Source: Neelides folsomi (lineage: Eukaryota > Arthropoda > Collembola > Neelipleona > Neelidae). Taken from it: 64,000 nucleotides of DNA. The translations under genes and the position numbers were made by a program. The stretch is taken from contig JAQGBZ010000030.1 in NCBI GenBank assembly GCA_034687125.1, positions 186,001 to 250,000 on the forward strand, read 5' to 3'. Of the stretch, positions 525 through 54,757 are shown one piece after another; within the stretch, counting starts at the first letter, position 1; each line of letters starts with the position of its first letter. The notes beneath the pieces were generated by a model. It made no database searches and had not been told where the DNA came from. It was given only the letters and a program-made list of their open reading frames with translations.

Positions 525-3500
525 ATGGTTAGAACCCCTGCTGTGACAAGAGCATTTAAAGTAAATCGATTTGAAGCTCATCCGACCAAGAAGGAATTAA
601 TCATAAGGGGAGAAGTTGTTGCCACATTCGTCAATAAAACCACTGAAAGATTCATCGCACAAGAAACGAGGGTGAGGAGAGAAGAAACTTCAACTTCTAA
701 ATCAACTTATGTGATTTTAAAATATTTGACCTTTATGTATCAAGAAAGTTAATTTTTATTTTTTAATTTAAGGCGATCTGTGTTTCTGTTTTTAGGATTT
801 TTACAAATCGGTGAAACTCGAGGGGTTGGGCAAAGGATCAGATGTGATCAGTATTGTGGACGATATATTAAAAGCCTTTCCGTATTTAGAAGAAGCAATT
901 TTGAGAGATAGCGAAATTGTTGTTAGTTTAATTGAAGAACTCAAATTGAGAACGTTTGAACGGAACGGAGCGCTTTCTCCATTTAAAACCAATGCGTTCG
1001 ATGAGGAAGATGATTTTCTTTCCCCTTTTGAATTACAATTACCAGATTACGTTGAAGACAATTTAGATTTTAACGACGCAGAGACTGATGGTAAAGAAGA
1101 CATTTCATTAGGAAATTTAGAAAATTATGTCGAGTTGCTCTACGAAGAAATTCCTGAGAAAGCCAAAGGAGCAAAACTCATATCAAAATTGATAAGATAT
1201 CCCGAAAACCTCTCACTCGTTTCCCATCATGGTAAATATTTAATAAATATGATTTCCTTGAAATTAATTATCTTTTATCATTCATTATTCAAGATACTAA
1301 CATACCAAGAGTGAATAATCCAACGTTTATATTTTAAATTTTTTTTTGAATTTATACTTTATTTTATTTTTTTCAGAAACGGCTCTTAATGCAATTTTTA
1401 GAACTCTCCGAGAAGATTTTAGGAAATCAATTGTTCTTACTACTTATATTTTAGAAGTTTGTAATTCTTATGCTAAATTCGAAGAATACCATGATATTCT
1501 CATTATTAATAAAATTCGGAGTGTGGCTCTCGACATCATTGAATTTGAATGTGGACGCTATCAAAAATGGTGCTCAGAAGTGGAAAATAAACGTGACATT
1601 GCAGAAGTGGACGTCGCTACATTGAAGCAAAAACATGACTCTCAGAAAGCAAATTCAAAATTGGAGGAATTAACGTTAAAACAAAATCGACTTTTAAAAA
1701 GTAAATTCTCTTTCTTAACAATAATTGAAGTTTTAAGGTACAGTTTAAAAATAATTTCTGTTAACTTTTGACTTTGACCTTTGGTGTTTTATATTTAGAA
1801 AGTAAAAGGCAATTTAAATGATAATTTTGAAAATAATTTTTTATTCATTTCCAGTGGCATTCGATTTATTATCCAATTTATGCCAAGATCTTGAATATCT
1901 CGTTGAGATGTTGAACAAAGGAATGGTGCGATGGTTAGTTGAATCTTTGGATCGAAATGATCAAGATGTCATTAAGAGCTCTGCATCATTGCTCACGAAT
2001 ATGGCCAACTACAAAGAAGTATTGGTTGAACTGTGTCAACTTCCCATTGCTCCAAGACTCGCCAAGATTCTAGAAACCAATCACTCCTATGACGTTACTG
2101 TGATGCTTCTCAAATTGATCTTCAATTTATCTTTTGATACCAAAATAAGGCATAGAATGATAAAAGCCGGACTTTTGACTCATATTGAAACATTTTTAAG
2201 TAAGTTAAAATCACTACAAATTACATATTGTACATACAATAAGACAATAAAACACCCATTAAATAATTTAATATAATAATATACCATATAAGTAGGTATG
2301 TGTATTACATTTTAATATTCAGATATTGTGTAACTCATTTAATAATTGCAATTTAAAATATATTTAAAATCGTTTTTAGATAATCAAGGACTCGAAGATG
2401 ATTGTATAAGCATATTGTACAATTTTTCAACTGATAATAGAATACGCCCTAAAATGACTTCACAGATTTTAATTTCTGCAGTAAGTACTTAAACCTGTAG
2501 CATTAGTGTTAAGACTTTTAAAATAACTAAACTTGTGTTCATGCATTAGTTAATTAGCTTTTATTACATAGTTCATGCAAGTTATATTTGAGAGATCAAG
2601 CGGATTAATTGGAGTTGAACTTGGTGCTTTGGCTCTCAACCTCTCTGCACATAAACGTTGTGCGGCACAAATGATGGTAGACAACGGTTTGAGTCTCCTT
2701 CTCAGACAAGCCTTTCAAAACGAAGACATAATTACAATGAAAGTGATCCGAAACCTCGCAAAACACGAGGGCCCTACAAAAAGCCAATTCATTGAATTCA
2801 CTGTTGACTTGGCCAAGGCCTTGACGCAAGCGACAGCAGAAGAATTTGTTATTGAATGTTTGGGAACTTTGGGGAATTTAACTATAGTTGAACTCGACTT
2901 TCAAAAACTTCTTATTCAATTTAACCTCATTCATTGGCTAAGAAGACGGATTGAACTGGCAGAAACGAAAATTGGAACGCCATCAAGGCCAAAAACAGGG
3001 AAAAGCCGCGGAAGTTCTCCAAGGAGTCCTTTAACAGGTGAGGACTTAAAAAGTCTTAAAATTCTCTAAATAACTTTATTTCAATATATAAAATAATAAA
3101 TTATAATATACTCAACTTATATTAAAGTTGAATATATAAATAAAAGTTGAATAATAACTTAATAACACCGACACCGACAGAGATTTGAATAAGAACACTT
3201 ACATAAATCAAACTTTACAATTACTTGAAAAGAAACATTTTATTGGCTTTTGGCTTATTGGAGTGGTTTTTGCTGTTTTGTATTACAAAACTTAAACTTT
3301 TTATTAAGTATTTACATTGTAAGTATTTTAAATATATTTTGTCAGGAAATCGATTGGATGAGAGACATGAAAGTAATTTACACGAAGATAGCATGATCCT
3401 TGATGTGATCGTCTTCATTGGCACCTGCTCGGGCGATGCGGACTGCGGCGAGCTGCTGATCAAAGAAGGAATTATTCAACAGATCATCCGCTTATTACCT

Positions 3501-4974
3501 CGAATCGGAGACTCTGATGAAGAAATTGATATCCACATTCAAATAATTTATTTATTCTACAAGCTCTGCACACAAGGAAAAACTCGAGCTTATTTGATGG
3601 AACAAACCAAAATTCCTGAACTTTTCCTTGATCTCATGGAAAGTCCGATCCCACAAATTCATAGGACTTGCTGTGCAGCCTTAGATTTTCTTGCGGTGAG
3701 AAACGGATTTTTAAAATCTTTCTTTTCGTTGAATATGAAGCCATACATACTTGAGATATTTCCCATATGGTTAATACATAAATGAATTCTATTGAATATT
3801 TAATTTTGTATTGAATGGCGTTCCTTTTACGTCAACTTTGGATAATTTAAAAGTTTTCCTCAACTTTTATTTTGCGAATTTGCAAATGTGCTTTTCCTTT
3901 ACTAACGATAAGTAAATATTATTTAAAAGATATGACTCGTATATAATGCCGTTTGAGCTGGTCTTTTTTGTGAAAGTTTTTTCACTTAAGTCTACTGCGT
4001 GGTAAATGAACTCTTCGCCTTTCTACTACAAAACAATTTTCTCTCACCTCCAAGAGTATTTTGACCCTTATAAGGTCAATAAATATACAAAATAGTTTTT
4101 AAAAGTTGTATATTACAATACGGTACAGTACAATGCAAGTGCGTATTCATATTATTAAGAATTTCAAAGATTTTTTTATAATACATCAAACAAAAAAATT
4201 AACTTGCTCCTTTCTCGGTCTACAAACTTAATAAAAAAGAATCACTTAATAAAATAATAATGAACGATTTCATATAAAGGACTCATATTGAGAACTATTG
4301 TATTTAAAAATGCGAATTACTATTTAATTAACTTTTATTAGAAACTACTCAACTGAAATATTAAATGTTAAAAATAAATATCCAATCATGTATTTTAGGA
4401 GTACAATGAATCTTGGAGAGAACGAGTCAAAATTCGAAAATTCACTCTTCACAATGAGACATGGCTAGAGATGAACGAACGCGGGTCTGAAGATCCCGAG
4501 AGACCCCAAATGATTCCAAACGGTGATGTTGAGACTCCGCTGTCAGGAGAAGAAACTGATGTCTATGATGAAGAGTCGAGATACGAAGATGACTCTTCCG
4601 ATACCCTCATTTCAGAGTCAGATTCCGAAGAGGGGTCGGCAATTGAAGATGATCCAAGGCCATTTGACAGTCGATTTGAGAATGTTCGAGAAACCAAAAG
4701 CATCTTTGATCAATTCAAGCATCAATATGAACAGGAGATGGAGGCAAAAGAACGGTGGGAATTTGGAATCAGTGAGGATGGATCCGAGGACGAAGATGAA
4801 GATGATTTGAACTACGACTATGAAGACGCCATGTATGACCACCATAGGAGTGAAACAAGGAACAAATCGAGATCGAAGAAGAGACGAGCAACTACTGGAG
4901 TTATTCCATCTAATCAAAGTCCAGATACCCTTCAAATCCACAATCCCTTGAGTCCAAAAGTCAATTGGTATTAA
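525..4974 (+). CDS. KIFAP3: kinesin-associated protein 3 (KAP3), non-motor subunit of kinesin-2
   Basis: KAP3 is the armadillo-repeat subunit that joins the two kinesin-2 motor chains and links the motor to cargo in intraflagellar and axonal transport. The model has eight exons: 525-671, 796-1231, 1377-1700, 1855-2199, 2380-2480, 2572-3037, 3346-3695 and 4399-4974. All phases close, giving 914 residues against about 790 in human. Recognisable blocks are the N-terminal stretch with HPTKKELIIRGEVVATF, the YVELLYEEIP motif, LLKLIFNLSFDTKIR, IRNLAKHEGPTK, FVIECLGTLGNLTI and, opening the last exon, EYNESW..LHNETWLEM. All have human counterparts in the same order. The extra length comes from a Ser/Pro/Arg-rich insert at about residues 587-608 and a very acidic tail (about 749-875) followed by a basic RSKKRR cluster at 881-886. 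The start is the first ATG aligning with the family N-terminus. An AATAAA at 5003 could be the poly(A) signal. Confidence 0.93.
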
Positions 4975-11000: not shown

Positions 11001-14000
11001 TTCAATTGCATTTTGCCAATTCTCTGGTGTGACGCGATCACATCCCTCTTATATTAAGTTAAAATAGACACTATTTTAGTTAAAAATGGAAGAGGAGTTT
11101 TTAAAATGAAAACTATTTAATTGAATTACTAAACTTTGATTGACTACGTTGTTATACCAAATACTCTAATTCGTAACTATGGATTTGAACTTTAAATCTC
11201 AGGGTTTTTCTCTCCCCGAATAGACTATAATTATCAATTAAATTCTGGATAAATCGAACTGCTACTTTGATAAAAAGTCCAGAGTATAATCAAAGCATTA
11301 TACAATTTATACATTTTTTATTATTAATTTTCACCTGTTACTTTTACTTATAAAAATTATTTTAGATGTGAGAATAATTGAAACGTATGCTCCACATGTT
11401 GAATTTGTGACCAACTTTCAATTCGTCGTTCCAAGATGTAAAGATCTGAGCCAATTCCGGGATCTCTGCAGTTATTATTTTTTTAAATTTTATCTTATAT
11501 AAATCTTTACTAAAATACAATTTTTGCTTACCTCATTAAAATACCTGATTAAATGTTTACTTATTGTAAGTTCAAACGCATGAAATATAATCTAGGATTT
11601 TAATTTTACTATACAATATATGGTATAGGTAACTATTAGTATATAACTGTATTTATATATTATTATGTATTCAGTATTCAGGGTTTTGTAAGAGTGAAAG
11701 TTTAAAAATAACTAAGTGTAAATTAACGCACCACTGATCATTTTGTTTTCACGTGATGTGGTCGAGTTGCATGGTCTCTCAATTCATCTCATAATTTCAT
11801 AATTACAGGAACGCCAGTTAACATCAGCTACATGCTAAATGATAAGGGATAGTTAAACGACCGAGAGCACTCTGCCAAACTTGTTGATGTTATTAGATAA
11901 AGTGACATAACGAATCAATGTCATGAAGTCTTTCTTAAAGCTAACAATGAAAATGTCCGAGCTAGAAGGATGTTATTTTACAGTTCATTAAAACGTTGTT
12001 TAGATAAGTTCCTTAGAACTCCTCTTCCTTAGATAAGTGCGTTTAGCATTTTTGATGATTTTAATGACTCTCCTTGAGTTCATTTACATTTACGAGATTA
12101 AAAGACTCGATGCGTAATGACTTTGTTGTGATTTTGCTTATTTATCCTTTTTTATTCTCTAGCTCAAGCTATTGTTAAAATGATACATCTAACATTTTAA
12201 ATCTTCAAGGATCAAGATCGATAAAAATCAAAATATTTATTATTTGAAGCTTCAAATTCTTGATCTTGATAATTTAAGTTTAAAATGTAATGGCTATTCA
12301 TCAACTCTTTAAACCAAATGTTACGAGTACTTTTAAAGCTAGTTCCATGATGAATTCGAGCTCTCACAATTCAAAATATTTATTAACCCTTTAAAAACTG
12401 TCCCTAGATAATAGTTTCTTTCACAGAGCACATTAGAATCACTTTTATTTCACAATCTATTAGAGTGTGAAATAAGAGTCGTAATAATTTTTGTCGTACC
12501 ATACCATACATGTTGTAAATAAGTATTATGTACAAAGTACAATAGATGTACAATAGATGTGTTTCATAAATGTTTCTTATATTTTATATGAATTTATTTA
12601 TATACCTGCAATAGTACAGTATATGTATGTATAGGTAGGCAAGATATAATATTACCTTTAACTTTATATTTTTTCATATATGAATCATTGATTCGCAGAA
12701 GGGGATTAGAGATTTTTAAAATTTATTCATAAAAGTGTTACCAACGTGAAATTTCAACAATATAAGCATACTAGCAGAATCAAACGGTTTTAAAATTAAC
12801 AATAATTGTAAAAAGCTTTATTGAACTATATATAATCGAAACGTTATTGCCAGAGCTGCTTTTATATTTAATGATTTCTTTTAAATTAATAATTTAAATA
12901 AAATAAACAAATTCTCTAATCTCCCTCTGCGAATCAACTATGGAATTGAAATCCCTATGGAATTGAAATTTAATATTTTTACATTATTATTAAAAATGAT
13001 GATTCTTATATTTATTTATTTTTAACTTTTTAAGATCCAGACAAACCATCGAATCTCGCCGTGTCAAATATTTCACATCGATCGTTCCTTCTAAATTGGA
13101 TTCAAGAGAATGAGAATTATGGGAATTTATCTCATCGTGTAGCAGTTTATTACAGACAAGAGTTTGTTATGGGATTTATGAAATCTGTCGTCATTTTATC
13201 CACTGACAAACTTTTCTTTAATCGTTCTATTGGAAGTTCCGAGTCTTCTATTGAAGTTCAATTCCCAATAGATAAATTTTATATCAATGAATCGTTGAAT
13301 CTCTATTTCATTGCCAGTCTTTTTGTTGAAAACTTACATGGGAAATCGGAGAAAGCTTTTATTGGATTTCACCATACATTTTTTGGTATGAAATAAAATT
13401 ACCTAAATAATATACTAAATATTGGTACAAAAATATTAATATAATCAATAAGTTAATAACTCGATGATTAATTTCCCTAAAGGCCCAAAGGAACCTACCA
13501 ATTTGGCTATCATAAACATTTCAGCAACTTCATTCATTCTCTCTTGGGAATTGCAGATTAATAATGGGAACAAAAGTTTGGATGAAGAATTACAAGAGAA
13601 TTATAAAGTCATGTCATTTAACGTAGTGGCGACTTACATAGAAGTTTTCTCTCAACTTACAAAATCCCATTCATCGCCCCAAAATTCAATTTCTAAAATA
13701 ATTTTTTTAAACACTTCCCTTTCAATTAATGTCAATTCCCTTGAAGTTTCCTTTCCTACTCAAGTCATAAAAATCATCGATACGAGTAGAATTTATAGCT
13801 TTGAAATTGGAATCATTACAAAAAGCCCAAAAGGATGTTCAAAACCATCGGCTTTCTCTTTTAATCATCAATTCAAAGGTATTTTTAAAAAATATTTATT
13901 ATGATCAAATCGAATGACTTAATTTTTTAATGTTTTAGGGTTATTGGATGAAAACAAACCAGAAAAAGCTTACAATCAGAACATGTCAATTTGGTTACCT

Positions 14001-17000
14001 TTGTCAATGATATTTCTAATGAGTCTGGTTCTCATTTTCATAACACTCTTTTTAATTTTTATGATGAAGGATTTGCAAAAGAAACGTGAGAGAAAGAAAA
14101 ATCGACGGAAATATTTTGAGGTTTTTCTAATTATATATATCAAAATGATTATATTATTATTTAATAAAATAATTATCTTATTTTTTTACCTATGTATATT
14201 ATGTTATGCCCCATGACAAAAATAAATACCATTATATTAAATTTAACATTTTCTTTATACAGTGTAAGTATTTGAATCATAATTATGATATTTAGTAGTT
14301 ACCCATTAATACATTTACATAAATATTTAAATTATGCCTTCATATGGTGGTTTATTAATGTTAGTACCTGTACCATATTGTATGTCAGATTTCTTATTTA
14401 CATAATTATCAAGATTGTATCATTTAAGGGTTTGGACAAGGAGTCAATTGAGTTCAATGTCCTAACGTTGGATAATCACAATTTGCAATGGGAAATAAAT
14501 TTGGAAGATCTCACTTTTGGAGAAAACATTGGAGAAGGAGCATTTGGAATTGTGAAAAAAGCTTTACTTCAGCGGAACGGTGAAAGAACAATGGTAGCCG
14601 TTAAAACCCTGCGACGTAATATTTTAATGTCATTTTACGATTAATATTAAAGTAAGTAATTTTTACTTAAATGTATTTGTATTTTAGCTATTATTTTAGT
14701 AGTTGAGCTTTAAAAGGTTTAGTTTTTACAAAATTTGAGGAAGATATTAATTTTAAGATGAATAGTAATTTTACAGTATAACCACAAGTACAATAAAGTA
14801 AACTGGAGTATGTCAGAGTCTCACCCTTCTTGGCAAAATATAAGTATCCTAAATAACTTTGGCAAATTCGCTACTTCAGATGGCGTCGGAGACAACAAAG
14901 ACTTTGGGCACTTTTGGGAAGAATTTGATATTCTCCAGAATCTCGACAGCCACAGGAACGTTGTGGCTCTTATGGGCGTTGTGAAAGGAAATGTTCCAGC
15001 ACTAGTTGTTGAATATTGCCCTGGAGGAGATTTGCAAAGTTTTTTGAGAAAGGTAAAAATCCTTTATAAACCTCCATTTATAATAAAATTACAATTCTCT
15101 AATAACACAATTTATCTACATCTTTATATTATTACATTAATTAGGCCCACAGGAAAACTGCAAAGTCCAAATCAGAAAATGGATCTCCACATACAGAAGC
15201 CGAAGATAATACTTCGCAAAACGGTACAAAAATACTTCAATTCCATTTTATACATTCCATTGCATACACAAGCTACTATTGCCAATTCGGCTCAATTTGC
15301 ATATACATGAACTCTTAAGTAGGGCTTAAAGTAAAAACCCGTTTTCAATTTAGTCTATGTAAGAATCTTATTACTAATGTTACGTTGTTATACAATACTA
15401 TTTGTATAATGTACCATACATGTCTAATACTGTATGTACATACTCTTATACTACTGTATGTAGCCGAGATGTTACATACGTTACATGTCCCGTATTATAT
15501 GTATTAAGTGCTTATACAGATAAAAACAAATAGCTTTTATCAAATCTTTGCGTTCTTCAAGACTTTTCCAAAGTTAGAGAAAGCATAATTGCATTTCCTC
15601 TTCTATATGGATCTATATATGGAATGATCTGTATAGTAAGTAAATATAAAGTTGTCGAAACCACATGGTTTCTTGATTGATCATTCACAAGATTCACAAC
15701 AGGTTTAAAGTTGTATGAAATCCCCAAATGAAGAAAACTTTTAATGCTCGAGAGAGGAAAAAAGGGCATTCAGGGAAAGTTGAAATTGTAATTGAAGGAA
15801 AGAAATTAACCAAGTGTTAAAGAAAAAATCCCTATGAGGTTTAAACCCGTCTTATCGATTCAAAATCTCAACAGGGGAAGACGTAAAAGCTAGACTCCCA
15901 ATGGTTACGAATCTCCTTTACTTCTTCGACCGGTCGGAAGACAATGATGAAATCCTCGTGACTGAACACGATTTGCTCTCTTTTGCTCGCCAAGTCTCTT
16001 GCGGAATGGTGAGTGGATACTTAAAACTATTAAATGCTCCCACTCATAAAAAACCTAAATTGACTTCCTCCCACTACTTCCCAAATATTGTTCCCAGTTT
16101 GGGCTTATCTTGGAGATTTTGTTGAAAGTGGAAAGTTCATTTAGTAATGAAATCGAATGAGATGGTTCGCAATCTCTTGTGATCTCATTTCATCAGATCT
16201 CAAGAGACGCGATTATGTATTACAATAAAAGCCATAATGTTTCCTAACCTTTCACGCAGTCTCTGCTTTACTCCTTAGGAATTCTTGGAGAAGAACAAAA
16301 TCGTTCATCGAGATTTAGCAGCTCGGAATGTTCTCATTGGAGTAAATGCCGTCCTCAAAATCGGCGATTTCGGCTTAAGCAGGGACATTTACGAGCAGAA
16401 CTTGTACAAAAAGAATTCAAAAGGAATGATTCCTATTAAATGGCTAGCGATTGAATCCTTACTCCAACAAATCTATACCACCAAATCAGACGTGTAAGCT
16501 AACCATAATGAGTTTTTTATTGGGCTAATATTTTACATCCGTTTAATTAACTTTACCCAATAGGTTAAAATAAACCGAATGAAAATTCCAATAGACTTCA
16601 TTTAATCAAAGATTTGTTGATCTAAGTAATAATGAATTAGTGTAATAAATCCATTGAAGGATTATAAACTGCAAACAAGTTGGGAATATAATGAAGATGA
16701 ACTATATGGTTAATTAACTTCCTCACTTCCTCTGCATTTCCTGTGGAAGTCAATCAATTCATTTTCCTTCCTTTTATACAATAACAAAAGGGAAGGTGGT
16801 CGGAGTGGGCGGATTTTGATTCATTAAATCATTCATTATTGATCCAAATGGAGAAAGTTAACGTAGGACGAGAAATTTGGCAAAGATTCCTTTCCCCAAT
16901 TCATTTTGGACTTCTTGTGGATTTGTAGCCTTTCAAGTTCGCAACCAATCTCACCACCAATGAATCCTCCACTCACCTCAATCTCTATTCAACAACCCAC

Positions 17001-18234
17001 GGTTGAGAACACCTTTTGAATTCACTCCCACCTCGTTAATTAAACATTCCCTTTTACGCTAATGAAGAAAACTCAATTTAATCTAAAGGAAAAAACAAAA
17101 GCCTTTATTAATTGTAAATGAACCTCAAAAAAGTATTAAAAATAGAATGAATTTTCATAGTACTGTTGGTCGATTGTGTAAACTTTGAATAAAAAACTTT
17201 AAAAGTTTTTTTCAGGAAATATTTTAAATTATCTTTTCGGTTATTTAGTATTAAATTACAATTCAAATTACATTTGAAGAAAATGTATTGTTCACGAAAT
17301 AAGATTAATAAAATGATGAATTTTTATATTTGAAAGAATAAATTAGGTAATCCAAAGATAAGTAAGCCTGCTTTCGTATGAAGTGTATTAAATGTAAGTT
17401 ATTTATTTATGGTCTTTTTTAGATCCTAAGGGTGTTTGTTTCTTGTCTTATTTGTTCCAAGAAAAATGATTTTTATGAAAGCTAAAAGAAAATACGCGGA
17501 TAAAAAAATTGACAAGTGACAAGGCGAAGGTCTTATCTGTGGAATGGATGACAATGACAAGAACACAAAGGAGTGTGTCAACGTCACGCCAATTTTCGTA
17601 GTTTGCTCTTTTCATTATATTTCTGCGGTATTTGCTGTCATGAAGTTATTCGGAAAACGATATCTTTCATTTTCATCTAATTCTCATATGGAATCAAAGT
17701 GGAGAGCTTTATAAATATTTACTTTTGTGTTTGTAAAAAGGATGGGCCGTGTTCAAATAGCCATTTCAATTATTTTGATTTAATTTTCTGCTTTTAGATG
17801 GTCTTTTGGAATTCTGTTGTGGGAAATTGTTACCTTTGGTGGTAAGATTCAAAACCACTAAATTTTTACAAAATTATGAAATTAACCATTATTAAGATAT
17901 GTCTTTTAATGTTAAAATGGAATTATATTACCTATATTAATTATATTATATAGGAAGCCCTTACCCTGGGATCGATAATGGGAATATTTTTGATCTGCTG
18001 AGTTCTGGTTATCGAATGCAGCGGCCCGATAACTGTTCTGATGAAATTTACGCTTTAATGAAAGAATGCTGGCACGAGGACCCAAAAGATAGACCAAATT
18101 TTCAGATCATTCACTGCAAATTGGACAAATTAATTGAGAAATCCTCCTTCGTTACGTACATCAGTATCATGCCTAATAGAGAAAGTTTTTATGAACCAGA
18201 TGAACGAGATGAAACTCTCAGCGAAACTATTTGA
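8010..18234 (+). CDS. tor: Torso-like receptor tyrosine kinase
   Basis: Single-pass receptor kinase. In insects Torso binds PTTH or Trunk and signals through Ras/ERK. Seventeen exons close to 1046 residues: 8010-8213, 8768-8866, 9101-9354, 9920-10116, 10220-10404, 10506-10560, 11366-11470, 13035-13385, 13483-13878, 13939-14120, 14429-14615, 14880-15052, 15145-15223, 15875-16008, 16279-16493, 17798-17841 and 17954-18234. Layout: hydrophobic signal at about 16-32, Cys-rich segment (Cys 62, 66, 88, 93, 96, 102, 112, 123), fibronectin-III-like domains up to 615, membrane helix at about 633-657, then a split kinase. The kinase has the Gly loop GEGAFG (711-716), Lys735, a short insert from about 797 to 850, HRDLAARN (Asp879), DFG (Asp897), an activation loop with the DIYEQNLY tyrosine pair, and [30 protein letters not shown]...Y and the RP-C-E kinase end all match fly Torso closely. 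The least certain borders are 11470, 13035 and 14615. Another small RTK family (for example Cad96Ca or FGFR-like) is possible but less likely. Confidence 0.82.
8550..8584. repeat. perfect 16-bp inverted repeat with 3-base loop
   Basis: GAAGATCTATCTGTAT is followed by TAC and then its exact reverse complement. It lies in intron 1 of the receptor gene, just after a run of TACAA-type short repeats. It could form a strong hairpin in the pre-mRNA or a cruciform in DNA. No function can be assigned. Confidence 0.85.
10581..11286. mobile_element. non-autonomous TIR transposon with TA target duplication
   Basis: The element starts TA|CTCTGGAC and ends GTCCAGAG|TA. The terminal inverted repeats extend imperfectly for about 110 bp on each side, down to the block with TCTATTCGGGGAGAGAAAAA. 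The body is about 702 bp and the flanking TA is duplicated, as in Tc1/mariner/pogo insertions. The centre keeps a transposase tail on the minus strand. It fills almost all of receptor intron 6 (10561-11365); without it that intron would be about 100 bp. Confidence 0.88.
10878..11042 (-). pseudogene. C-terminal fragment of a DDE-type transposase
   Basis: Minus-strand frame of 54 codons plus a TAG stop, inside the TIR element of receptor intron 6. It reads [15 protein letters not shown], then a charged stretch with YWEID, and ends in an acidic Asp/Ser tail (SSSDDSDIE). Helical ends of the type V-T-x-E-N-W-x-x-A-x-x-H are familiar from pogo/IS630-type transposases. A TAA lies just upstream and no catalytic core remains, so it is a relic kept by internal deletion. 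The family assignment is from memory and moderate. Confidence 0.65.
12688..12937. mobile_element. MITE-like inverted-repeat element
   Basis: The left end TTGATTCGCAGA and right end TCTGCGAATCAA are inverted copies, and the match continues imperfectly for about 27 bases through GGGATTAGAGA. The 250-bp unit lies in receptor intron 7 (11471-13034). I see no coding remnant and no clear target-site duplication, so its superfamily is unknown. Confidence 0.65.
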
Positions 18235-18597
18235 ACTCAGACTGCAACTTCTTCTTTTAACTTTTTCTTAAGACTATTTGAGTACTAATATATGGGTAAT
18301 ATTCTCCCAATGCTTACCTATTACTTATTACCTCATAAAACAAAATGTGCAAACATGGTACAGAGATAATCACTAATGGATAGTTACATATTAAATGATG
18401 TATGTATTAAATTTAATTAATATGGTAATTTATAAGTACTCTACTCATTTCATTAGATAATACTATTTACCCCGGATACTTGCAGTATACAAGTACCTGT
18501 ATTACATTATATTTTTACTACCTAATATTTTTACATAACATAGGTCGTTTACTTTACCATATTATACAATTTTAGGCATTTATGTATATAATTTCTA

Positions 18598-21313: not shown

Positions 21314-21492
21314 ATCATAAGCATAAAGCTTAAATTATTTTATATTTAATAATATAAATAATTTTCACTTATTTATTTTTGCTAATGAGGAATTTTTAGC
21401 CCCTGCCCGAATTTAAGCCCTGCCCGAAATATAGCCCCTGATCCAACCTGATTTTTAATTTAAGCCCGGGGATAAAAATCGGTTCAATACGG

Positions 21493-36700: not shown

Positions 36701-37796
36701 CTTAATTGATTGAGTTAAACATTTACTAGGTATCTACCGCACTCAGAGCTCTCATTTGGAGAGCGACGAGAGCGACTATTACGACACGAACGACAATGCC
36801 TATGGAGCCGAGGCGGGCACTTCAACCTCTTTAGAGAGCTTACGGAAACGGAAAGGAGGCGGGAGTACTCCGGGGGGAGGTGAAACCAAAAACCCCTACT
36901 ATTCACATTGCTTCCGGGCCGCTTGTGGCTCTGATGCGAGCTCATTTACATCGGCCGCTTTAACCGTCACAGATGAGACCCGAGACTCCCACGCTCAGCT
37001 CATCGAGAGAGCCGAGATGACCAACCTCGTGAGATCGAGGATGGAGAGCAACAGACTTCCAATCTGCGAGCAAGAAGTGGTTGGGACCGAGAAGCGATCC
37101 ATCTCCTACGTCATCATCAACCCTTCCTGCGACCTCAAGATCAAGGAGGGAGACATCGTCTATGTGATACGTCCCAGTCCCTTCTCGGCCCACAAGACAT
37201 TTGAAAGACACAACTCGCGGAGGAAGTCGACACTGAACCAAGCGGCCGGGGCGGGAAATACAGAGGAGTTGCAGAAGGCCGCTTATGGGCTTTTCCAAGA
37301 AAAGAGAACTCCGCAACGTCGGCGGTCGTCCTCCGGCTCCGTCCCATTTACGAGTTTCATGGGTCATGGACACAGCGGCAGCGGAATGAATCGGGTAGGA
37401 ATGTCAAAGAGTAACTCACTCTCACTCCCAGACTCCCCAAGGCAGAGGAGCAACTCACTCCGAGTCGTCCCGGCCGATGACATTTTGCTGCGGAGGAGCA
37501 ACTCTTTGAGGCAAGGACTCGGCATGGGTCTCTCGGGGTCTGGAATGGTGGGGAGAAAGCATGGGTCACAGGACGAGATCGGGTTGCCGATCGTGACCAG
37601 ATCGCCTTTGCTGGCAACGACTTCTGCCCCTCCTTCCACCTCCCACCCCAGGCAGACAAGGATGACGATCAATGGCGGGATTAATTTTGAAGTCACGCCT
37701 CCCGACGACCATTTTGCCCAGCCGGGCATACAGACAGGGGTTGGAACGGGAGAAAGCCAATCTCAGAGCCCCACCCTACAAGGGACCATTGTGTGA
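24758..37796 (+). CDS. SLO2: SLO2/KCNT-type large-conductance potassium channel
   Basis: Tetrameric plasma-membrane K+ channel with six membrane helices and two cytosolic RCK domains, gated in relatives by Na+, Cl- or Ca2+. Fifteen exons: 24758-24975, 26336-26515, 26727-26925, 27848-28133, 28408-28449, 28527-28801, 29388-29806, 29897-30006, 31042-31632, 33199-33494, 34666-35090, 35159-35225, 35911-36096, 36564-36651 and 36730-37796, giving 1482 residues with every phase closing. Landmarks: [14 protein letters not shown] before S1, [20 protein letters not shown], filter TVGYGD at 314-319, [17 protein letters not shown] opening RCK1, [18 protein letters not shown], the SRRPSI linker motif, [10 protein letters not shown]-type block ([13 protein letters not shown]) and TPGSG-type APGSG in RCK2, and [16 protein letters not shown]. 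The first exon is joined by phase and gives [11 protein letters not shown]. The start is taken at the ATG at 24758 because the upstream in-frame opening codon is GTG. The C-terminal 350 residues are Ser/Arg-rich. Confidence 0.95.
27183..27212. promoter_or_regulatory. cluster of four TGACGT (CRE half-site) motifs
   Basis: TGACGT occurs at 27183, 27189, 27195 and 27207 in intron 3 of the channel gene. The first three are head-to-tail copies of a 6-bp unit. TGACGT is the half-site bound by CREB/ATF factors. It could be a regulatory cluster or simply a short tandem repeat; binding is inference. Confidence 0.4.
35349..35502. mobile_element. small MITE with 37-bp inverted repeats
   Basis: The left arm reads TATAGTTCATTCACGGTGAA and goes on through TTTGCGCTTGAGTTAT; the right arm is its inverse with one mismatch. 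The whole unit is about 154 bp in intron 12 of the channel gene (35226-35910). TATA at both borders fits a TA target duplication. No coding content. Confidence 0.82.
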
Positions 37797-40273: not shown

Positions 40274-40344
40274 CTATGTATTAAACTACGTATTAAACTA
40301 TGTATTAAACTACGTATTAAACTATGTATTAAACTATGTATTTA
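40274..40344. repeat. 12-bp tandem repeat in alternating pairs
   Basis: Six head-to-tail copies of CTA(T/C)GTATTAAA. The first four alternate CTATG, CTACG, CTATG, CTACG, so the array has a 24-bp higher-order period; the last two are both the T form and the final copy is cut short. Confidence 0.9.
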
Positions 40345-41394: not shown

Positions 41395-42583
41395 ATGTCT
41401 TTCTGGGCTGGTGTTCACCTTCAGGATTTCTTATTCAAGGGGCTTAATGTGGATTCAGCCCAAGGTATGTTTAAACAATTGGGAATTGTGTAATATTATA
41501 AAATTTAATTGACTATCATTGTATTTTAAATAATTTGTAAAGATTTGCCAATATCATAATTTATTGTGTTTTATTTTAGGCATTGCTGGAATTTTTATTG
41601 GGTGATATATTAATTACAATCATAAGATAACTCTTTTAATAATTTAAAAAATAATTTAATTTACTTATTTTCGTTACATTTTTATTAATTATAATAATTG
41701 TCTATCTTTGAACAATTTAGGCTCTTAAGTACGGCGATTCTCTACGAAGGACTTCGAACACTTCGAGATGTTCTGATAACACGATTTGGACAAAGCCAGA
41801 AGCTACTTATTAATTCTCATCATTCATCGTTTTCTGGTAGGGAAGAAGATATTCCGATTCTTCCAAGAAGCTCGAAAAGACCTCCCAAAATTGAATCAAC
41901 TGTTCGATACAATAAAGCTGGAAAATCAAGGAATCAGTCGGATATTCAACATGACGAAGGAGAAACCGAAGAAGGATCCAAAACCAAACGGTTCGATCCT
42001 CAATCTCAACAAGGCACTCCATTGCTACTTCAAAATGAACAAGAAGCGAACATGAAGATTAGAAAATGGAAGAGTATAACTGACTTGGGACTATCCTCCA
42101 TCTTTCACATGATTTATGTTTTTATTGGATATACATTAATGAACGCTGTTATGACCTTTAATATTTACATTTTTATCGCTGTTATCTTGGGGTGAGTTCT
42201 CTCAATTTAAATTATTTTAAATAGCTATTAAATAATATTAACTTTGGATTTATGGGAATGATTTAAATATGACAGAGTCGGTATCGGATACTTATTGTTC
42301 AGTCCCTTCCGATTTGAGCAAGTTGACGTCAATACGAATAAAGACCAAAGCAGCAGTACCACCGAAAGCGATGATCTCCTTCCATCGACATCTTCAGCTC
42401 TTCTCGGTAAAATAGTTTCAATACAGAACTTAAAATTTGTTTTTAGATATTCAAACTATTTGCAAAATAACATTGAAGTAAAATAAATAATATAACAATA
42501 CTATTGTTTCAGGAGAAAGAAGAGAAGTTTCTACTGTCAGCCGTGTTGTGTTTGGTGCTCAAGTTCACTCTCAACCAACATGA
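41395..42583 (+). CDS. SLC31A: CTR/SLC31-family copper transporter
   Basis: CTR proteins form trimers that pass Cu(I) through a pore lined by Met residues. Five exons: 41395-41464, 41580-41601 (only 22 nt), 41721-42191, 42276-42406 and 42513-42583, giving 254 residues. Helix 1 (about 24-42) ends ILYEGL. Helix 2 (about 158-177) contains IGYTLMNAVMTFN with the pore MxxxM pair at Met171 and Met175. Helix 3 (about 178-196) has the packing motif GVGIG (Gly188, Gly192). The start MSFWAG aligns with the family position just before helix 1, and an in-frame stop lies at 41359, so the usual Met/His-rich ectodomain is not encoded here. In that respect it resembles CTR2. The loop between helices 1 and 2 is about 115 residues, much longer than usual, and there is no C-terminal HCH. 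An upstream 5' exon cannot be excluded. It converges with SNRPF. Confidence 0.88.
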
Positions 42584-43861: not shown

Positions 43862-44122
43862 TCATTGATCCATTATTGCTTCCGGTTCTTCTTCGTCAAC
43901 TTGCTGGACATACATGACATTGTTGCAGCGAATCAGCACTTCTCCTAAATTTCCGGTCAAACTCCCATTGACGAATTCTTCTGTGTGGGCCAATTGAAGG
44001 TTCATGTACCCATCAACAGAAACTAAGAATCCTTTGTACTCTTGTCCCCACTTGAGCTTAACCTTCACTGACTTCCCAGTTAATGAGTTGAGGAATGGTT
44101 TGGGATTAACGGGCATCTGCAT
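43862..44122 (-). CDS. SNRPF: small nuclear ribonucleoprotein F (Sm-F)
   Basis: Sm-F is one of seven proteins forming the ring on U1, U2, U4 and U5 snRNA in the spliceosome. The frame gives 86 residues, the same length as human Sm-F. It carries the Sm1 motif (KPVMVKLKWG-type, here [15 protein letters not shown]), [18 protein letters not shown], and the Sm2 motif [13 protein letters not shown], with an acidic C-terminus ([11 protein letters not shown]). The start is the ATG at 44122, giving [12 protein letters not shown]; the frame stays open a little further upstream but a splice acceptor (TTTAATAG) ends at 44130 on this strand, so a 5'UTR intron or a trans-splice site is likely there. UCHL5 starts 624 bp away in the opposite direction. 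Confidence 0.96.
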
Positions 44123-44746
44123 CTTGGCGCTATTAAACAAAAAAATTAAAAAATTATTCTTAATACTCGACCAATTGATTTTATTTAATTACATATAGAC
44201 TTTTAGAATATACGAATTGATTTAAAATAATTATTCATTAGGTATATTACGTAGTTTTTGACGAAACTGGAGAGCAAATGCAAAGTCAATCAAATCGGTA
44301 AATTTTCTATCGAACAGTAAATTGTGAAGATGCTTGTTGAAATTGCTTTTTAGTGCTTGAAACCGGCAGCGTCAAATCGAATATTCAAAAGTGGTGCTTC
44401 CAAATGAGAGTCTGCTATTGGAGGATCAAAGAAAACGCAATTGTTAGCTTCCTATATAAGGTTTAATTCTCCCTCGATGTTCGTGTATTGAAAAGTCATC
44501 ATTGGTTGGAGTCATTGGGAGAAAAATTGAAGTAAATTTTACAAGAATTGATCTTATTTGGAAAAATTCCTAGTCGAGGTACTTGATTTTAATCAAAAAC
44601 GGAAAAGGGTAAATGATCTACCTATATAAAATATTAGTACTATTGTTAAAATTATACTATTATAAAAATTATTAAACTGTTTTAATAAATAAGCAAATAA
44701 TAAATCTGAATTTCGGTTTTTTAGATTCTCAAACTCTGCATTTAAA
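44123..44746. promoter_or_regulatory. divergent promoter region SNRPF / UCHL5
   Basis: The start codons of SNRPF (minus) and UCHL5 (plus) are 624 bp apart, so both promoters must lie here unless one gene has a remote first exon. Acceptor-like TTTTTTAG ends at 44724, 22 nt before the UCHL5 ATG; the SNRPF side has one 7 nt before its ATG. No TATA box can be distinguished from the AT-rich background. Confidence 0.6.
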
Positions 44747-46272
44747 ATGGGTGAAGCTGAAGGTACTTGGTGTTTAATTGAAAGTGATCCTGGTGTTTTC
44801 ACAGAACTAATAAAGGACTTTGGTAAGATATTATTTTCAAACTTATCATTTATATTGTTTAAACACTAGTTTTATATAATTAATAAAGTGTTAAGGATTA
44901 TAAGTATTTAATAAATAAATATTTTCTAGGAGTGAATGGATTACAAGTTGAAGAGCTTTGGAGCCTTGATGCTGAACATTTCGACAAACTTAAGTAAGAC
45001 TTGATTTTTGTTAGAAAGGAGTTAAAAGTACATTTTTGCTGCTTTCAAACTCAAAGCATTTAATTAAACAACATTGCAAATAACATTTAGTGATATAGGT
45101 AATGATTAATGATACGTTTTTAATGGTTCAATTTATCATTTTTTAGACCAGTCCATGGCTTGATTTTCTTATTTAAATGGATCGGAACTACTCCTGGGGG
45201 AAGTAGCGGGGGAAGTATTGTTCAAGACGGAAGACTAGATAATATTTTCTTTGCTCGACAAGTCATTCAAAACGCTTGTGCCACTCAGGTATTTGAATGC
45301 CTTTTATGAACATTAAGAAAATAAAAAATCTGATTCTAAACTCAATTTTTCTTTTTAGGCAATAATTTCAATTTTGATGAACTTGAATCACTCTGACATG
45401 GAGCTCGGCTCCGTTTTAACGGAGTTTAAAGAATTTACTCGAGCTTTTGATCCATCGATGAAAGGATTAGCTCTCTCGAATTCTGAAATTATAAGAACCG
45501 TTCACAACTCTTTTGCTCGAAACGCGATTTTCGAATTTGATAACAAATCTGAAGCTAAGGACGATGAAGTGTATCACTTTATTGGATATATTCCAATTGA
45601 CGGCCGTCTCTATGAACTGGATGGACTTCAAGAAGGTCCAATTGACCTTGGCGCTATTCCAGGTTAATTCATTTAACAAAAATTAACTTTGTCTTTTCGA
45701 TGCTAATTTGTATAGATAATAATAAATGAAGATTATATAATTTCATTTTATGAATAGATGGAAAGGATTGGACCCAAATTGTTCGCCCAGTTCTTCAGGA
45801 GCGAATAAGCAAGTAAGTTTTTCTAAATGAGAACTAAATGTCTATTTTTCAAATTAAAGATATTATTGTGTTTATATATTATTAAAAGTATATTTAAAGT
45901 AAAGTGGTAAATACTATTAAATTTTAAATACACAGGTACAATGAAGGAGAAATTCACTTCAACTTGTTAGCTGTTGTCTCGGATCGTAAAACTCAATTGG
46001 AGAAGCAACTGCATGAAATGGAAGCGAATGGAAACGGAATGAGAGAAGCCTTGTCGGAGATCAAGCAAATGATTGAAGACGAGGAGTCGAAAAGACTGAG
46101 ATTTCGACTTGAAAACATTCGACGCAAGCATAACTATCTTCCACTCATTGTTCAATTCTTAAAAGAGTTGGCCCAACAGAAGCAACTCATTCCTTTGTAT
46201 GACAAAGCAAAAGAAAAGGCTAAAAAGGCATCTGAGCAAAAAAGAGCATCTAAGGCAAAGCCCGATGTTTAA
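44747..46272 (+). CDS. UCHL5: ubiquitin C-terminal hydrolase L5 (UCH37)
   Basis: Cysteine deubiquitinase that trims ubiquitin chains at the 26S proteasome through RPN13 and also joins the INO80 complex. Six exons: 44747-44822, 44930-44993, 45147-45288, 45359-45662, 45758-45812 and 45936-46272, giving 325 residues against 329 in human. The UCH domain runs from WCLIESDPGVFTELIKDFG with the catalytic triad Cys91 (NACATQ), His167 (VYHFIGY) and Asp182 (LYELDGLQEGPIDLG); the spacing equals human Cys88/His164/Asp179. The active-site crossover loop lies in between. The C-terminal ULD part has the conserved IENIRRKHNYLP-type block (LENIRRKHNYLPLIVQFLKELA) and a Lys-rich end that in relatives binds RPN13. 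A Gly/Ser-rich insertion (PGGSSGGS) sits in the WIGTT loop. It is divergent from SNRPF. Confidence 0.96.
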
Positions 46273-47852: not shown

Positions 47853-50800
47853 ATGTGGGTCTTTAGATATTTGCTATGTGCTATATTTTTATTCTCGAGA
47901 AAAACTATGTCCCAAGTGGCGTTGCCTCCTGGTCATGAACGAGTGACTGACAACAATTGCTATGATGAGAACAGGAAAGCACAGGTAATTTGGTCAAACT
48001 ATTTAAAATTTTATAAAAAACGCTTTTAAAGTTTAATTACATAATAAAACATTAACCAAAAGAAGTATAGAATGCGATATATATCTCTCTTCTATTATCC
48101 TTGCATAATAAATAGTACGTGTATGATATGTATATATATATAAGAAAGCCTTATAAACTGGTGATTCCCAACTATTAAGGTACACTTATGAGGTATCCAC
48201 TAATTAGATATTTTGAATAAAAATGAAACGGAAAATTGATTAAAAATAATTCTAAATTAAAAAAACTAATTGTAACTGCTTTTTTAAAAAATGCATGTGT
48301 TAAATTGTCAAATGTAGAAATGCGCTCCTGAGTTCGTCAATGCAGCGTACAATCTTCGAGTTGAGGCAACAAACACGTGTGGAATGTACGGACCCCAAGA
48401 GTATTGCATTCAGCACAAGACCGTGCACGGGTTAGATCGAAATTGTCATTATTGTGATGCTCGTGCTCGTGGTCGATCCCATCCTCCAGAACACATGACA
48501 GATATCGACTTCGACAATAAACCCAACAGTCGATGGCAATCAGAAACACTCCATGAAGCCCTCAATTGGCCATCCGCGGAGCTTAAAGTCAATTTGACCC
48601 TCAGACTTGGAAAATCTTTTGAAATAACATACGTCCGAATTAAATTTGATCAATCGCCACGACCAGACAGTTGGGCAATTTACAAAAAAGTTAGAGAGGA
48701 CGGACCTTGGATTCCTTATCAATTTTACTCTTCTACATGTCGGGACTATTATGGTTTACCTGATCAAAATTACATTCATGGAGGAAGTGAAGATCGCCCT
48801 ATGTGCACCTCTGATCATCATGACATTGTTCCAATCTCGGGGGCTGAAATTGTTTTCTCTACCTTGGAAGGACGCCCATCGGCTGTTTTACATTTCGAAG
48901 ATTCGCCTCAATTACAAGATTGGGTAACGGCAACGGATATTCTTATTGTTTTAGATCGACCAAATACCTTCGGTGATGAGTTGTTTGGAGATGAGAGAGT
49001 CTCAAAGGCTTACTTTTACGCCATTTCCGATTTTGCAGTTGGTGGAGCGTGAGTTTAAAATTTTATATTTTTACATTGATTATAAAAATATTAGCTAATG
49101 GTGCATTACAATATTTTTTATAATTTAACTTTAGTTGCAAGTGCAATGGACATGCTTCTGAATGTGTTTGGAGTACTTCAGAATATCCAAATAATGAACG
49201 TTTTCTTGTTTGCCAATGTGAACACAATACTGGTGGGCCTGATTGCAATGAATGTCTCCCCTTTTACAATGATTTGCCATGGAAGAGAGCTCATTCGGAG
49301 AACGCTCATGAGTGCAAAGGTAAAAATGAAACTTTTATATAGTGATTTTTTCATATTTATTATATTTATTTATTAATTAACTGATGAACTTTATTAATGT
49401 GTTTTTTTAAATCTTTAGCTTGCAACTGCAATAATTTTTCAAATCGGTGCTTTTTTGATCAAAAATTATACGATGAAACCGGTCATGGTGGTCATTGTAT
49501 TGATTGTAGTGGAAATAGAGATGGACCGAATTGTGAAAAATGCAAATTGAACTTCTATCAAAGATCTGATGGATATTGTATTCCATGTCACTGCAATGAT
49601 ATCGGTAAAGTTTCTTAATTAATAACTCTCTTATAAAACCATCTTTAAAATTAATATTAAGTAATACTTCAATTCATCATATAGTGGAGTATTCCAGATC
49701 TGTAATCTGTAGTTTGAATTTATACCAACATAAAAACTAATTATAAATTGTTAAACTGACTTTAGGATCAAGAAGCTTACAATGTAACAGCGAAGGAAAA
49801 TGTCAATGTAAACCCGGTGTGTCCGGTGAAAAATGTGACCGCTGTCTTGCAAATTATTATGATTTTGGACAACCCGGTTGCAAAGGCTGTTCTTGTAATA
49901 CTCCAGGCAGTTTCAGGAATGAACCCAATTGCGACACCGTTACTGGAAAGTGCGAATGTAAAGAAAACGTCGAAGGACAGAAGTGCGACAAATGCAAACC
50001 CGGTTTCTTCAATTTGGACATTGTTAACAATTTCGGATGCACTCAATGTTTCTGTTATGGACATTCTTCCGTTTGTCGATCTGCCCCTGGTTATGGGCAA
50101 GGTATGATTTGTTTTTTGATGAGCTTAGTTTATTTATTTATTTAAATATGCTAAATTACCTCTTCAAAGTAGTCTAGACAATGCTGTAGTAGTAGACAAT
50201 GTAGTAGTAGACAATGCTGTTGACAATTTAGCCTGTAGTCAATTTCTCAACATTACCTAATGTTAAATGTTTATGTTGTGTAGTCTCATTAGTCTTCTAG
50301 ACCAGGTACAATTTTATTAGTTGTTGCTTCAAGATCTGTATTAGTAATTGTTGTTCACCATACATTTAGAATATATCTGTTTATCTATCTCACCTTTAAC
50401 CTTTCTCTGCTACTAATTGAATCATTTGAACAAAGACGCTTGACTTTGTCACTAAAATTAGAGTACATTAAATCGCTCATTAACGACGTATTTTTAGTTT
50501 TGTTGGAAAGCATTTTTGCTCGTGGAAGCGAACGTTGGACGGCCGAAGAAGGTCAAAGAGGGCCAGTGACGATTCAATACAATTCCGCCACACAGAACAT
50601 TGAAGTTAAATCTTCTGGAAGAGAAGGAGTTTACTTCCTTGCTCCGGGTAAAAATTTTCTACTTATCGTTAATTTTAATCAAAATTAAAATCCAAATTTT
50701 TTATTATATTATCTGTAGTTAAACGCTTTTATGCAAACCGATATTAATTTTTTTAAATTTGTCAGATCGATTTTTGGGCGACCAGCGAGGAAGTTATAAC

Positions 50801-53800
50801 CAGGACCTTAACTTTACATTGAGGATTGGAGAACACAGTCCAAAACCATCAGCGGAAGATCTAATTCTTGAAGGAGCCGGTCTTAAAATATCAAGACCAA
50901 TATTTGGACAGGGAAATACATTGCCGTCAATTCAAGACAAAGAATTTACTTTCCGACTCCATGAACATCCCGACATTGGATGGAATCCGAAATTACAAGC
51001 TCGAGATTTCATGAGCATCCTTGCCAATCTAACAGCTATCAAAATTCGAGGAACTTATGCTTTCAACGGTTATATTTTTATATATCATTTAATTTTTTCA
51101 TGCATTCATTTGAGTTGTTAGTTTAGTAACTTAATAATTTCATTTCATTTTAGGCGTTGGATTTTTGGACAATGTGAAATTAATGACTGCTCGACGAGGA
51201 ACCGCAGGTGGACCAGCACCATGGATTGAAATGTGCACTTGCCCTGAAGGTTACATTGGTCAATTTTGCGAATCTTGTACTCCGGGATTTACTCATGAAC
51301 CAAAGAATGGCGGACCGTTTGCAAGATGTGTTCCATGCTCGTGTAATGGCCATGCCGAAGATTGCGATCCTGAATCTGGACAATGCATTTGTATTCACAA
51401 CACTGGAGGAGAAAATTGTGAGAGATGTGCAAGAGGATTTTATGGAAATAGTTTGAAAGGAACAGATGAGGATTGTAAACCATGTCCTTGTCCAAACCAA
51501 GGAGCCTGTATTCAACTTCAAGATGAAACAATTGTATGTCTTGAATGTCCAACTGGATATGCTGGACCTCAATGTGAATTTTGTGGAGATGGATTTTATG
51601 GAGATCCAATGGGGCACCTCGGAGAGCCAACTGAATGCCAACCTTGTGAATGTAATGGAAACATTGATCCAAATGCAGTTGGAAATTGTAACAGGACCAC
51701 TGGAGAATGCATAAAGTGTATTTATAACACCGGAGGACCAAAGTAAGATTTTCTTATTATTTTTTTATATCTTTAAGAATCATGGCTGGATTTTTTTAAA
51801 TTGTGTTTTTATTATTTATGTAGATGCGATAGTTGTGTTGCTGGATATTATGGAGATGCGTTAGCTTTACCCAAAGGAGATTGCAAATTCTGTGAATGTA
51901 ATGAAGTCGGAACATTTCCAACACACGATGGGAAATTTGTTTGTGAGCAGCCAACTGGTCAATGTGCATGTAAAGACAATGTTTTGGGACGACAGTGCGA
52001 CACGTGTAGAGAAGGCCATTATGATATCGCAAGCGGTTTCGGATGCAAAGAATGTTTATGCGACGGTGTTGGGGCATTAAATATCTCATGTAATGTCAGA
52101 ACAGGAAATTGTAATTGTAGAGTTGGGGTTGTTGGTCTGAGGTGAGTTAATTTTTAATATTAAAATTTATTATAAATTCACTTTCTCATTTTGATCATAA
52201 ATCTTGTACAAATACTGTAATTAATACATTGGATTAAGACATTATAATTATCATTGTAGATGTAATGAGTGCGCTCCAAATCATTATGGATTCTCGAATG
52301 ACGGGTGTGAAACTTGTGAATGTGATCATATTGGGTCGCTTTCTCTTCAATGTGACCCTGAAGGCCAATGCCCGGTAATTGAAAATTAACTATACTTTAA
52401 TTTATGTAGAAAATAATCAAAAAATCATTATTTTCTTAAATGGAATTATAATTTATGAAGTGTCGAGAAAACGTGGAAGGACGAGCTTGTGATCGATGTA
52501 AAGAAAACAAATTCAATAGACAAGCTGGTTGTGTTGATTGTCCCGCATGTTACAATCTCATTCAAGAAGCCGTGAATAGCCAAAGAAAGAAATTAAGAGA
52601 CATGGAAAAAGTTCTTGAGGAAATTGCGAATACTCCAACAGTAATTGATGATAGTGAATTTGAAGCAAAACTTGATGAAGTTCAAGCAAGAGTTGAGAGT
52701 TTATGGATTGACAGCAAGTCAGCAACTGGAGAAGATAAAAGCTTATTGGATAAACTCAAAGAGTTAAATGATAAAATTAAAACAATCGACGAGACATTTA
52801 AACAGACAAAGTAAGCAGATTTTAATTTTCCAATTAAGTAATATAAGCTTATTAACTAAAAATTACATAACTAAAAGTTTCTCTGATTTTTAACCATTTT
52901 TTATATTCAAAAAATTCTAAAAATGATTTGTGAACATTTTTAGAATATCGATGGAACAAGGACGAATCAATGCCGAATGGAGCGCAGACAATCTAACTCT
53001 TGCAGAAGGAAGTGTCGAAATGGCACAAGAAGCTTTAAGAAACGCTCAAAGATTCCTTGACTCTGATGGAAAAGACGCTTACGAAAAGGCCCAAGAAAAA
53101 TCAAAAGAATATGGCCATCAAAGTCATCTTATGAGCGAATTGGCCAAACAAGCCCGGCGTCTTGCAGATGACAGAGAAGATGAAATGAAAGAAATGGAGA
53201 AAATTGCAATGACTGCTTTTAATACTTCACTAGAAGCTCTCAATTTAGCTAAAGGAGCCCACGAACAACAACGAAATATCAGCGACGACGTTCGAAAACT
53301 CCAACAATCAACTCAATCCATTGAAGATGAAACAAATGTAATTCACCGACGTGCAGAGGAAGCCCTCCGAGTAGCTAAAGAAGCCCATAACAATGCATTG
53401 AACCATTTCCAAGATGCTTCCAACCAGGCACTTCCTTCTATTGACTTAAAGGCAATTAAAGAACAAGCTCAAAAAGCTAAGGCTGAAGCAGAAAAACTTA
53501 AAACTTCTGTCGAAGTTTTGATCGCAGGTCGGGAGAAGCTTTTAAAAGAATCTCAAGAAGAGGCAATGCACGCCAAGGAGATGCTCAGGAATGCGAACAA
53601 CTATCAACAAAGAGCTGATGAGCTTCTGGCGGATCTTGATAAGGCCAAAGCATCTGCTGATGAGTCAAGAAATCAGTCAGAGAATGTGTTTAAAGAAGCC
53701 CAGAAGATACACGACACTCTTCAAGGTATTCGTTATTGCAATTAAAGTCCCAAGTCCTTATTCTTACTTTGTAACTACTAAGTAAGTAAATCTCATTCCC

Positions 53801-54757
53801 CTTATCGCCCAGATAGCGGAAACATTTAATCCAAATCATCGTTTCATTTTACCAGACTTCAACAGGAATGTGGAAGAGAGCAAAGTGAACGCGAAGGCGG
53901 CTAAGGAAAGAATCCCCGAAATCCAAGACCTCATACAAGAATCAGAGACTCAGACTCGTGAGAACCAACGTGCACTTGCTGGAGCCAAAGTAGCGGCCTC
54001 AAAAGCATTACTAGATGCCGACGAAGCAAGATCAATTGCTGAGAAAGCTTCAGAAGTAAATCTTAGAAATTTTTATAGACAAACACAAAAAAGATTATTG
54101 TTTAATTACACTTAAATGGAATTATTTTTATTTAAGGATGCCGATAAAATACGTGGCGAATGTGGAGAAACGAAAGCTCGGGCAAATAAATTAAGAGACG
54201 GTGCTCTTACTCTTAATACAAGAGTCGCAGACACGTTCAGCAAGCTTACTGAAGTTGAGGAAAAAATTGGTGAGGAGGATAAGCAAGTGAGGGGAGCTCT
54301 TGAGAAGGCTTCAGAGGCTCAATCAACTGCAAAAGATGCTCACGAGAAGGTCGAAAAGGCACTCAACACAGTTCGAGATATCGCCATCACTCTGAAGAAT
54401 CTTGATAACATAAGTAAGCTATTTGTTTCGTATGATAATGCCAGGAGGCTTCTGATGTTCCAAATCAAATACCTAATACTGACTTAACTGACTTTTGACC
54501 TTTTTAATTAACTAGATGAAGAGGGGCTCGATAACTTGGAGCAAAAAATATCTGAAGTGGAAGAGGAGCTGAGAAAGGCCGGGTTGGATGAGAAAATTGA
54601 GACTCTTCGGACAGCGAGAAATAAACAGATCCTTTGGATTAAGAACTACGAGGACGAGCTTGAGATGCTGCGGAAAGAGGTCGAGAATGTTCAAGAAATT
54701 CAAAACTCACTGCCTCCAGCTGACAGATGTTGGAAACGGACTCGACTGGAACCATAA
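47853..54757 (+). CDS. LAMC1: laminin subunit gamma-1 (LanB2 type)
   Basis: Secreted basement-membrane protein, the gamma chain of the laminin heterotrimer. Fifteen exons: 47853-47984, 48318-49048, 49135-49319, 49419-49604, 49766-50101, 50498-50647, 50766-51068, 51154-51742, 51824-52141, 52260-52374, 52461-52810, 52944-53725, 53856-54055, 54137-54413 and 54516-54757. They give 1631 residues, close to human (1609) and fly (about 1640). Order: signal peptide (about 1-22), LamN domain with ATNTCG and [10 protein letters not shown] (to about 287), a first run of LE modules beginning [10 protein letters not shown], the LamB (IV) domain with [15 protein letters not shown] and IKIRGTY, a second run of LE modules including the [17 protein letters not shown] module, the conserved nidogen-binding type, and a long coiled coil from about 1045 to the end. 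The final CWKRTRLEP holds the conserved inter-chain Cys and a C-x(6)-Glu. AATAAA at 55057 may be the poly(A) signal. Confidence 0.96.
50171..50225. repeat. short tandem repeat in laminin intron 5
   Basis: Two and a half imperfect copies of a unit containing GTAGTAGTAGACAATG. It looks like replication slippage in the 396-bp intron. Confidence 0.7.

Follow-up and report, generated by a model that had tools for sequence, protein, structure and literature searches.

The stretch of DNA considered here, hereafter the window, comprises 64,000 nucleotides (C30:186001-250000) of contig JAQGBZ010000030.1 (C30) of Neelides folsomi, whose assembly holds 75.1 Mb in 840 contigs, and the question it raises is whether seven genes lying together in it, with their neighbours on the contig, keep a linkage also seen in human. 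All seven were recovered where the original prediction had placed them, from open frames and from profile (Pfam) and sequence (PDB) matches; when ten window stretches were put to Pfam, eight returned the expected kind of family and two returned no match. The gene for the kinesin-II associated protein KAP3 (KIFAP3) has several exons on the forward strand (525..4974), of which two matched Pfam KAP (2e-17 and 1.1e-34), and its top PDB match was kinesin-associated protein 3 (2.6e-28). Across the 75.1 Mb genome, all six KAP matches fell within C30:186811-190533 (window 811-4533), five of them over the Pfam cut-off. A receptor-type tyrosine kinase gene follows on the same strand (13034..18234; PK_Tyr_Ser-Thr, 5.1e-16). 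Its FN3-like repeats were recognised by eye, the stretch 13034-13393 having no Pfam match, and no kinase match was obtained in Pfam for 15838-16122. Since FGFR1, ABL1, RET and MER score about equally among the 60 best of 256 matches, this kinase has no single clear human orthologue. Directly past it lies a long hairpin (18591-18868) with 125-nt arms, 81% complementary, and a 28-nt gap.

A potassium channel gene of the KCNT (SLO2) type extends over 26671..37796 on the forward strand; one exon matched Slo-like_RCK (7.2e-25), the score for KCNT1 was 5.3e-42 and that for the best BK channel 5.5e-07, and the C-terminus again matched KCNT1 (8.4e-09), while Pfam gave no family for the exon at 27827-28324. 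Next come a CTR copper transporter of the SLC31A family (41698..42195, forward; Pfam Ctr, 4.2e-16), with a 12-bp tandem repeat upstream (40270-40342; 6.1 copies, 93% matches), and, on the reverse strand, an Sm protein F-like gene (43862..44188; Pfam LSM, 4e-22), named SNRPF by eye. Two exons of the deubiquitinase UCHL5 (UCH37) were recognised at 45359..46272 on the forward strand (Peptidase_C12, 5.2e-30), with UCHL5 (2.3e-42) ahead of BAP1 (1.8e-17) and also of L3 and L1. The laminin gamma chain gene (LAMC; 48318..54757, forward) matched Laminin_N (5.2e-74) and ranked first among the 14 Laminin_N matches of the genome, and its match to LAMC1 (3e-80) exceeded that to netrin-1 (5.3e-60). Judged by these sequence scores, each of UCHL5, KCNT and laminin gamma resembles its assigned family more closely than the runner-up. 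The genes so identified lie together on one contig.

Gene finding was extended to 300,000 of the 368,762 bases of C30, open frames being ranked by a codon-usage score trained on the window exons or listed directly; names came from Pfam and PDB matches and in some cases by eye, and the gene list is incomplete. We scored 23 families, counting as a hit any family with a human copy inside the bounds of the human 1/6/9/19 paralogon, that of the major histocompatibility complex (MHC). Human gene positions were mostly assumed; those of NOTCH1-4 follow PMC11120892, and the placing of PPP1R10 and SLC39A7 in the MHC follows PMC1309616. Within wide bounds (1p12-p22/1q21-q32, 6p21, 9q32-q34 and 19p13), which are our own and were set after the contig had been seen, 12 of the 23 families were found. 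From the window these are KIFAP3, KCNT, SLC31A, UCHL5 and LAMC, and from elsewhere on the contig PPP1R10 (PP1-binding segment; PDB, 1.5e-8), SLC39A7 (a ZIP transporter by Pfam Zip, named by likeness, the name being unconfirmed by a PDB search that gave no match), FNBP1/FNBP1L/TRIP10 (an FNBP1/CIP4 gene of the FNBP1/TRIP10 family; PDB, 1.8e-21 and 1.4e-20), RPS28 (Pfam), NOTCH (LNR and NOD domains in Pfam), RABGAP1 (RABGAP1/1L; PDB, 1.4e-18, and DUF3694) and BARHL. Because about half of the identified genes thus match segments of human chromosomes 1, 6, 9 and 19, C30 probably represents a fragment of an ancient animal chromosome, and we consider it likely that this fragment inherited its gene content largely from the ancestor of bilaterians. 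This claim of common descent, which we infer, is limited to chromosome-scale linkage.

P values were computed in pairs, first with one draw per family and then with any copy allowed to count, for an assumed genome share of 12%; values given as corrected allow for 17 groups. The 12 hits out of 23 within wide bounds gave 3.3e-6 and 1.9e-4 (corrected, 5.7e-5 and 3.3e-3), and the window on its own, with five hits out of seven, 4.2e-4 and 1.1e-3. The published bounds of the paralogon are 6p21.3, 9q33-q34, 1q21-q25/1p11-p32 and 19p13.1-p13.4 (PMC1309616). Counted against these, 10/23 families were inside (P = 1.6e-4 and 4.2e-3), the count being lower because UCHL5 and SLC31A sit just outside. We take UCHL5 to be at 1q31, SLC31A at 9q32 and KCNT2 at 1q31, all just beyond the published limits, with KCNT1 inside; by assumed position, 15 of the 16 human copies of the six multi-copy hit families lie within these limits, KCNT2 being the exception. 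Outside the window, either set of bounds gave 7/16 families when 6p21 and 19p13 were included (P = 1.5e-3 and 0.024; corrected, 0.026 and 0.41). The original prediction had read the window as a remnant of a bilaterian linkage group framed by human 1q and 9q. We find this reading partly supported. The counts outside the window suggest that its direction was right, but the 1q/9q frame alone found only four of those 16 families (P = 0.017 and 0.099, for a 6.5% share), so that the four-way paralogon is the better frame. Two of the key genes of that prediction, UCHL5 and SLC31A, are beyond the published bounds. The linkage case is hence stronger or weaker according to the bounds, genome share and statistical model chosen; in our judgement the one-draw model is the apter for ohnologues, since these are copied together.

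Several observations weigh against this inheritance. Even within wide bounds, 11 of the 23 families were outside: GPCPD1 (a GDPD protein in Pfam, name by eye), AKR1 and NAPRT (an aldo-keto reductase and NAPRT in Pfam), CPQ (an M28 peptidase under the cut-off at 0.001, name by eye), ZGPAT (name by eye, its CCCH finger under the Pfam cut-off), VPS13 (one match over the Pfam cut-off and two under, scored as VPS13D from a UBA seen by eye), SLC4 (a band 3 cytoplasmic domain in Pfam, bicarbonate type by eye), IPO11 (an importin-11-like protein under the cut-off at 0.00011, its second exon uninformative), SNRPF, and the window kinase and an astacin (Pfam), both retained as misses. With published bounds, 13/23 are elsewhere in human, the corrected values are 2.7e-3 for one draw but 0.072 for any copy, which misses 0.05, and the window alone gives 3/7 (P = 0.042 and 0.072). 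The 12% share is itself an assumed figure. A share of 20% yields 6.0e-4 and 0.015 within wide bounds (corrected, 0.010 and 0.26) and 8.9e-3 and 0.10 within published ones (corrected, 0.15 and 1.0), and at 25% the corrected wide-bounds values rise to 0.079 and 1.0. Single-copy families alone give 6/14 within wide bounds (corrected, 0.065), and recognition of families partly by eye may favour well-known ones. Moreover, five other markers of the paralogon were searched genome-wide, and not one matched on C30. BET was found on C285, ARPC5 on C125 and RasGEFs on C5, C7, C12, C33, C217 and C250, and neither PBX nor the ABL actin-binding domain gave a match anywhere in the genome search, although the silence for PBX does not show absence. 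Such markers off the contig say little either way, because C30 makes up 0.5% of an assembly whose contigs are unplaced on chromosomes. Lastly, the proto-MHC chromosome has been argued to be composite, Nakatani and others dividing it into several proto-vertebrate chromosomes (PMC8302630).

These figures bear first on chance, whereby a single contig would have been matched after the fact to large human regions, with many-copy families inflating the matches. The any-copy corrected values for published bounds and for the genes outside the window are in line with it, and in a simulation at least four of seven window families fell on any one human arm with P = 2.9e-3 (from rough arm sizes, and before allowing for the choice of window), yet many windows exist. 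The one-draw values, however, withstand correction under both sets of bounds, and published work on Strigamia maritima shows linkage to be retained as a rule, 37/62 of its scaffolds being enriched for chordate linkage groups and 57% of the genes with human orthologues on the enriched scaffolds being in conserved context (PMC4244043). We therefore regard chance as an unlikely account of the whole pattern.

If the content of C30 was indeed inherited, the vertebrate genome duplications would have copied the same ancestral chromosome into what are now parts of human 1, 6p21, 9q and 19p13, while in the springtail lineage genes would have been shuffled inside that chromosome but would seldom have left it, so that old members would still be near one another, in mixed order and among newcomers. 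Shared function of the linked genes would not be required, and either one ancestral linkage group or two fused ones would be compatible as the source. Selection holding the genes together through co-regulation is, by comparison, a very improbable cause: we found no point in its support, no common pathway being apparent, the genes lie on both strands, and a transposase-like fragment and genes unrelated to them lie in between. The human copies are, besides, megabases apart. A conserved block or operon-like unit was likewise not favoured, no shared function being apparent.

A variant of inheritance deserves more weight, namely that C30 joins at least two ancestral groups and that a fusion in this lineage brought the 1q/9q and the 6p21/19p13 genes together. 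The division of the proto-MHC by Nakatani and others, cited above, is in line with it, as are the 11 to 13 families out of 23 found elsewhere, several of them on 8q and 20 by assumed position. On the other side, NOTCH, which belongs to the framework genes of the paralogon (PMC10751288), has human copies at 9q34.3, 1p12, 19p13.12 and 6p21.32, thus spanning all four chromosomes (PMC11120892). By assumed positions, chromosome 1 is also connected with 9q34 and with 19p13 or 6p21 through the FNBP1/TRIP10, RALGDS, tenascin and CACNA1 families. On balance we hold such a fusion to be possible, though it is not the course of events that we would expect.

Inheritance at the scale of the chromosome is also in line with known systems. 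C30 shares with the human paralogon and the proposed pre-MHC region the NOTCH, PPP1R10, SLC39A7, FNBP1/TRIP10, RABGAP1, BARHL, LAMC, KCNT, KIFAP3 and RPS28 families, PPP1R10 and SLC39A7 being listed for the class I and extended class II regions of the human MHC (PMC1309616; consistent with PMC8248358). It differs in that the BET and RasGEF genes are off the contig and PBX was not found, so that among the pre-MHC framework genes (notch, pbx, rxr and brd) NOTCH is on C30, BET on C285 and the PBX search was silent. No MHC, proteasome or complement gene was recognised by eye in 300 kb of C30, no search being aimed at them. In Strigamia (PMC4244043) and Limulus (PMC4066314), enrichment for a chordate linkage group has been described on scaffolds or on segments of the map, whereas C30 is a single contig from a genome of 75.1 Mb, scored with mostly assumed human positions. 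The chordate linkage groups that Simakov and others defined in 2020 likewise persist across phyla, their gene order rearranged, and the scallop has these groups as units, with CLGB in three parts (PMC7269912). By contrast, the Strigamia authors see in Diptera no obvious trace of chordate macrosynteny except local clusters (PMC4244043).

Other features of the contig were recorded. Two homeobox genes of NK type, confirmed only as homeodomains, lie about 100 kb apart, at C30:161993-162683 (Bari-like by eye; a family of that name is reported in arthropods) and C30:262776-266882 (BARHL by eye). RPS28 and the ZGPAT-like CCCH gene stand head to head (C30:95594-98042). Methionine-rich frames in which Kazal-type stretches recur, one of them Kazal in Pfam, lie at C30:1880-3301, and pogo/Tigger-type transposase-like frames, recognised by eye, at C30:181233-181946, between RABGAP1 and an EcKL-like gene whose exon was below the Pfam cut-off (0.0033). 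The scored list leaves out the Kazal protein, the EcKL-like gene, the homeobox gene at C30:161.9-162.7k and the transposase-like fragment, as well as a long coiled-coil gene at C30:39-48k (weak Fez1 match) and uncharacterised frames near C30:17-18k, 29k, 58-60k, 63-67k and 250-294k. In the window, two neighbouring pairs of inverted-repeat arms (10581-10712 and 11194-11286), which are 93% and 95% complementary and span about 0.7 kb overall, resemble a foldback element or a small inverted-repeat one. Genome-wide, a search for four TTAGG units gave 48 overlapping matches on 17 contigs, with none for the control; these telomere-type arrays, with the EcKL-like exon under the cut-off, suggest an arthropod.

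Judged by titles, we found no synteny publication naming at least three of KIFAP3, LAMC1, UCHL5 and KCNT2. No paper was found that joins FNBP1, 9q34 and BARHL1, and the paper found for KIFAP3, UCHL5 and RABGAP1L gives no cytoband for KIFAP3. Since arthropod-chordate macrosynteny has already been published for Strigamia and Limulus, the linkage on C30 is most likely a fresh instance of a known pattern, and it adds a data point on the persistence of chromosomes in a small, AT-rich genome to a principle already established. What has been gained beyond the original prediction is a connection with 6p21 and 19p13 by way of NOTCH, PPP1R10, SLC39A7, FNBP1/TRIP10 and RPS28. Within 0.37 Mb, C30 carries families of human 6p21 (PPP1R10, SLC39A7 and NOTCH) and 1q24-q31 (KIFAP3, RABGAP1L, LAMC1, UCHL5 and KCNT2), as well as of 9q32-q34 and 19p13, by mostly assumed positions, and this bears on the debate whether the later MHC-bearing region started as one chromosome. 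That 6p21, 1q24-q31, 9q32-q34 and 19p13 all derive from one early animal chromosome reaching 1q31 and 9q32 is a tentative and rather doubtful suggestion; if it were true, and the orthologues were linked in other invertebrates as well, it would speak against dividing this portion of the proto-MHC among several proto-vertebrate chromosomes.

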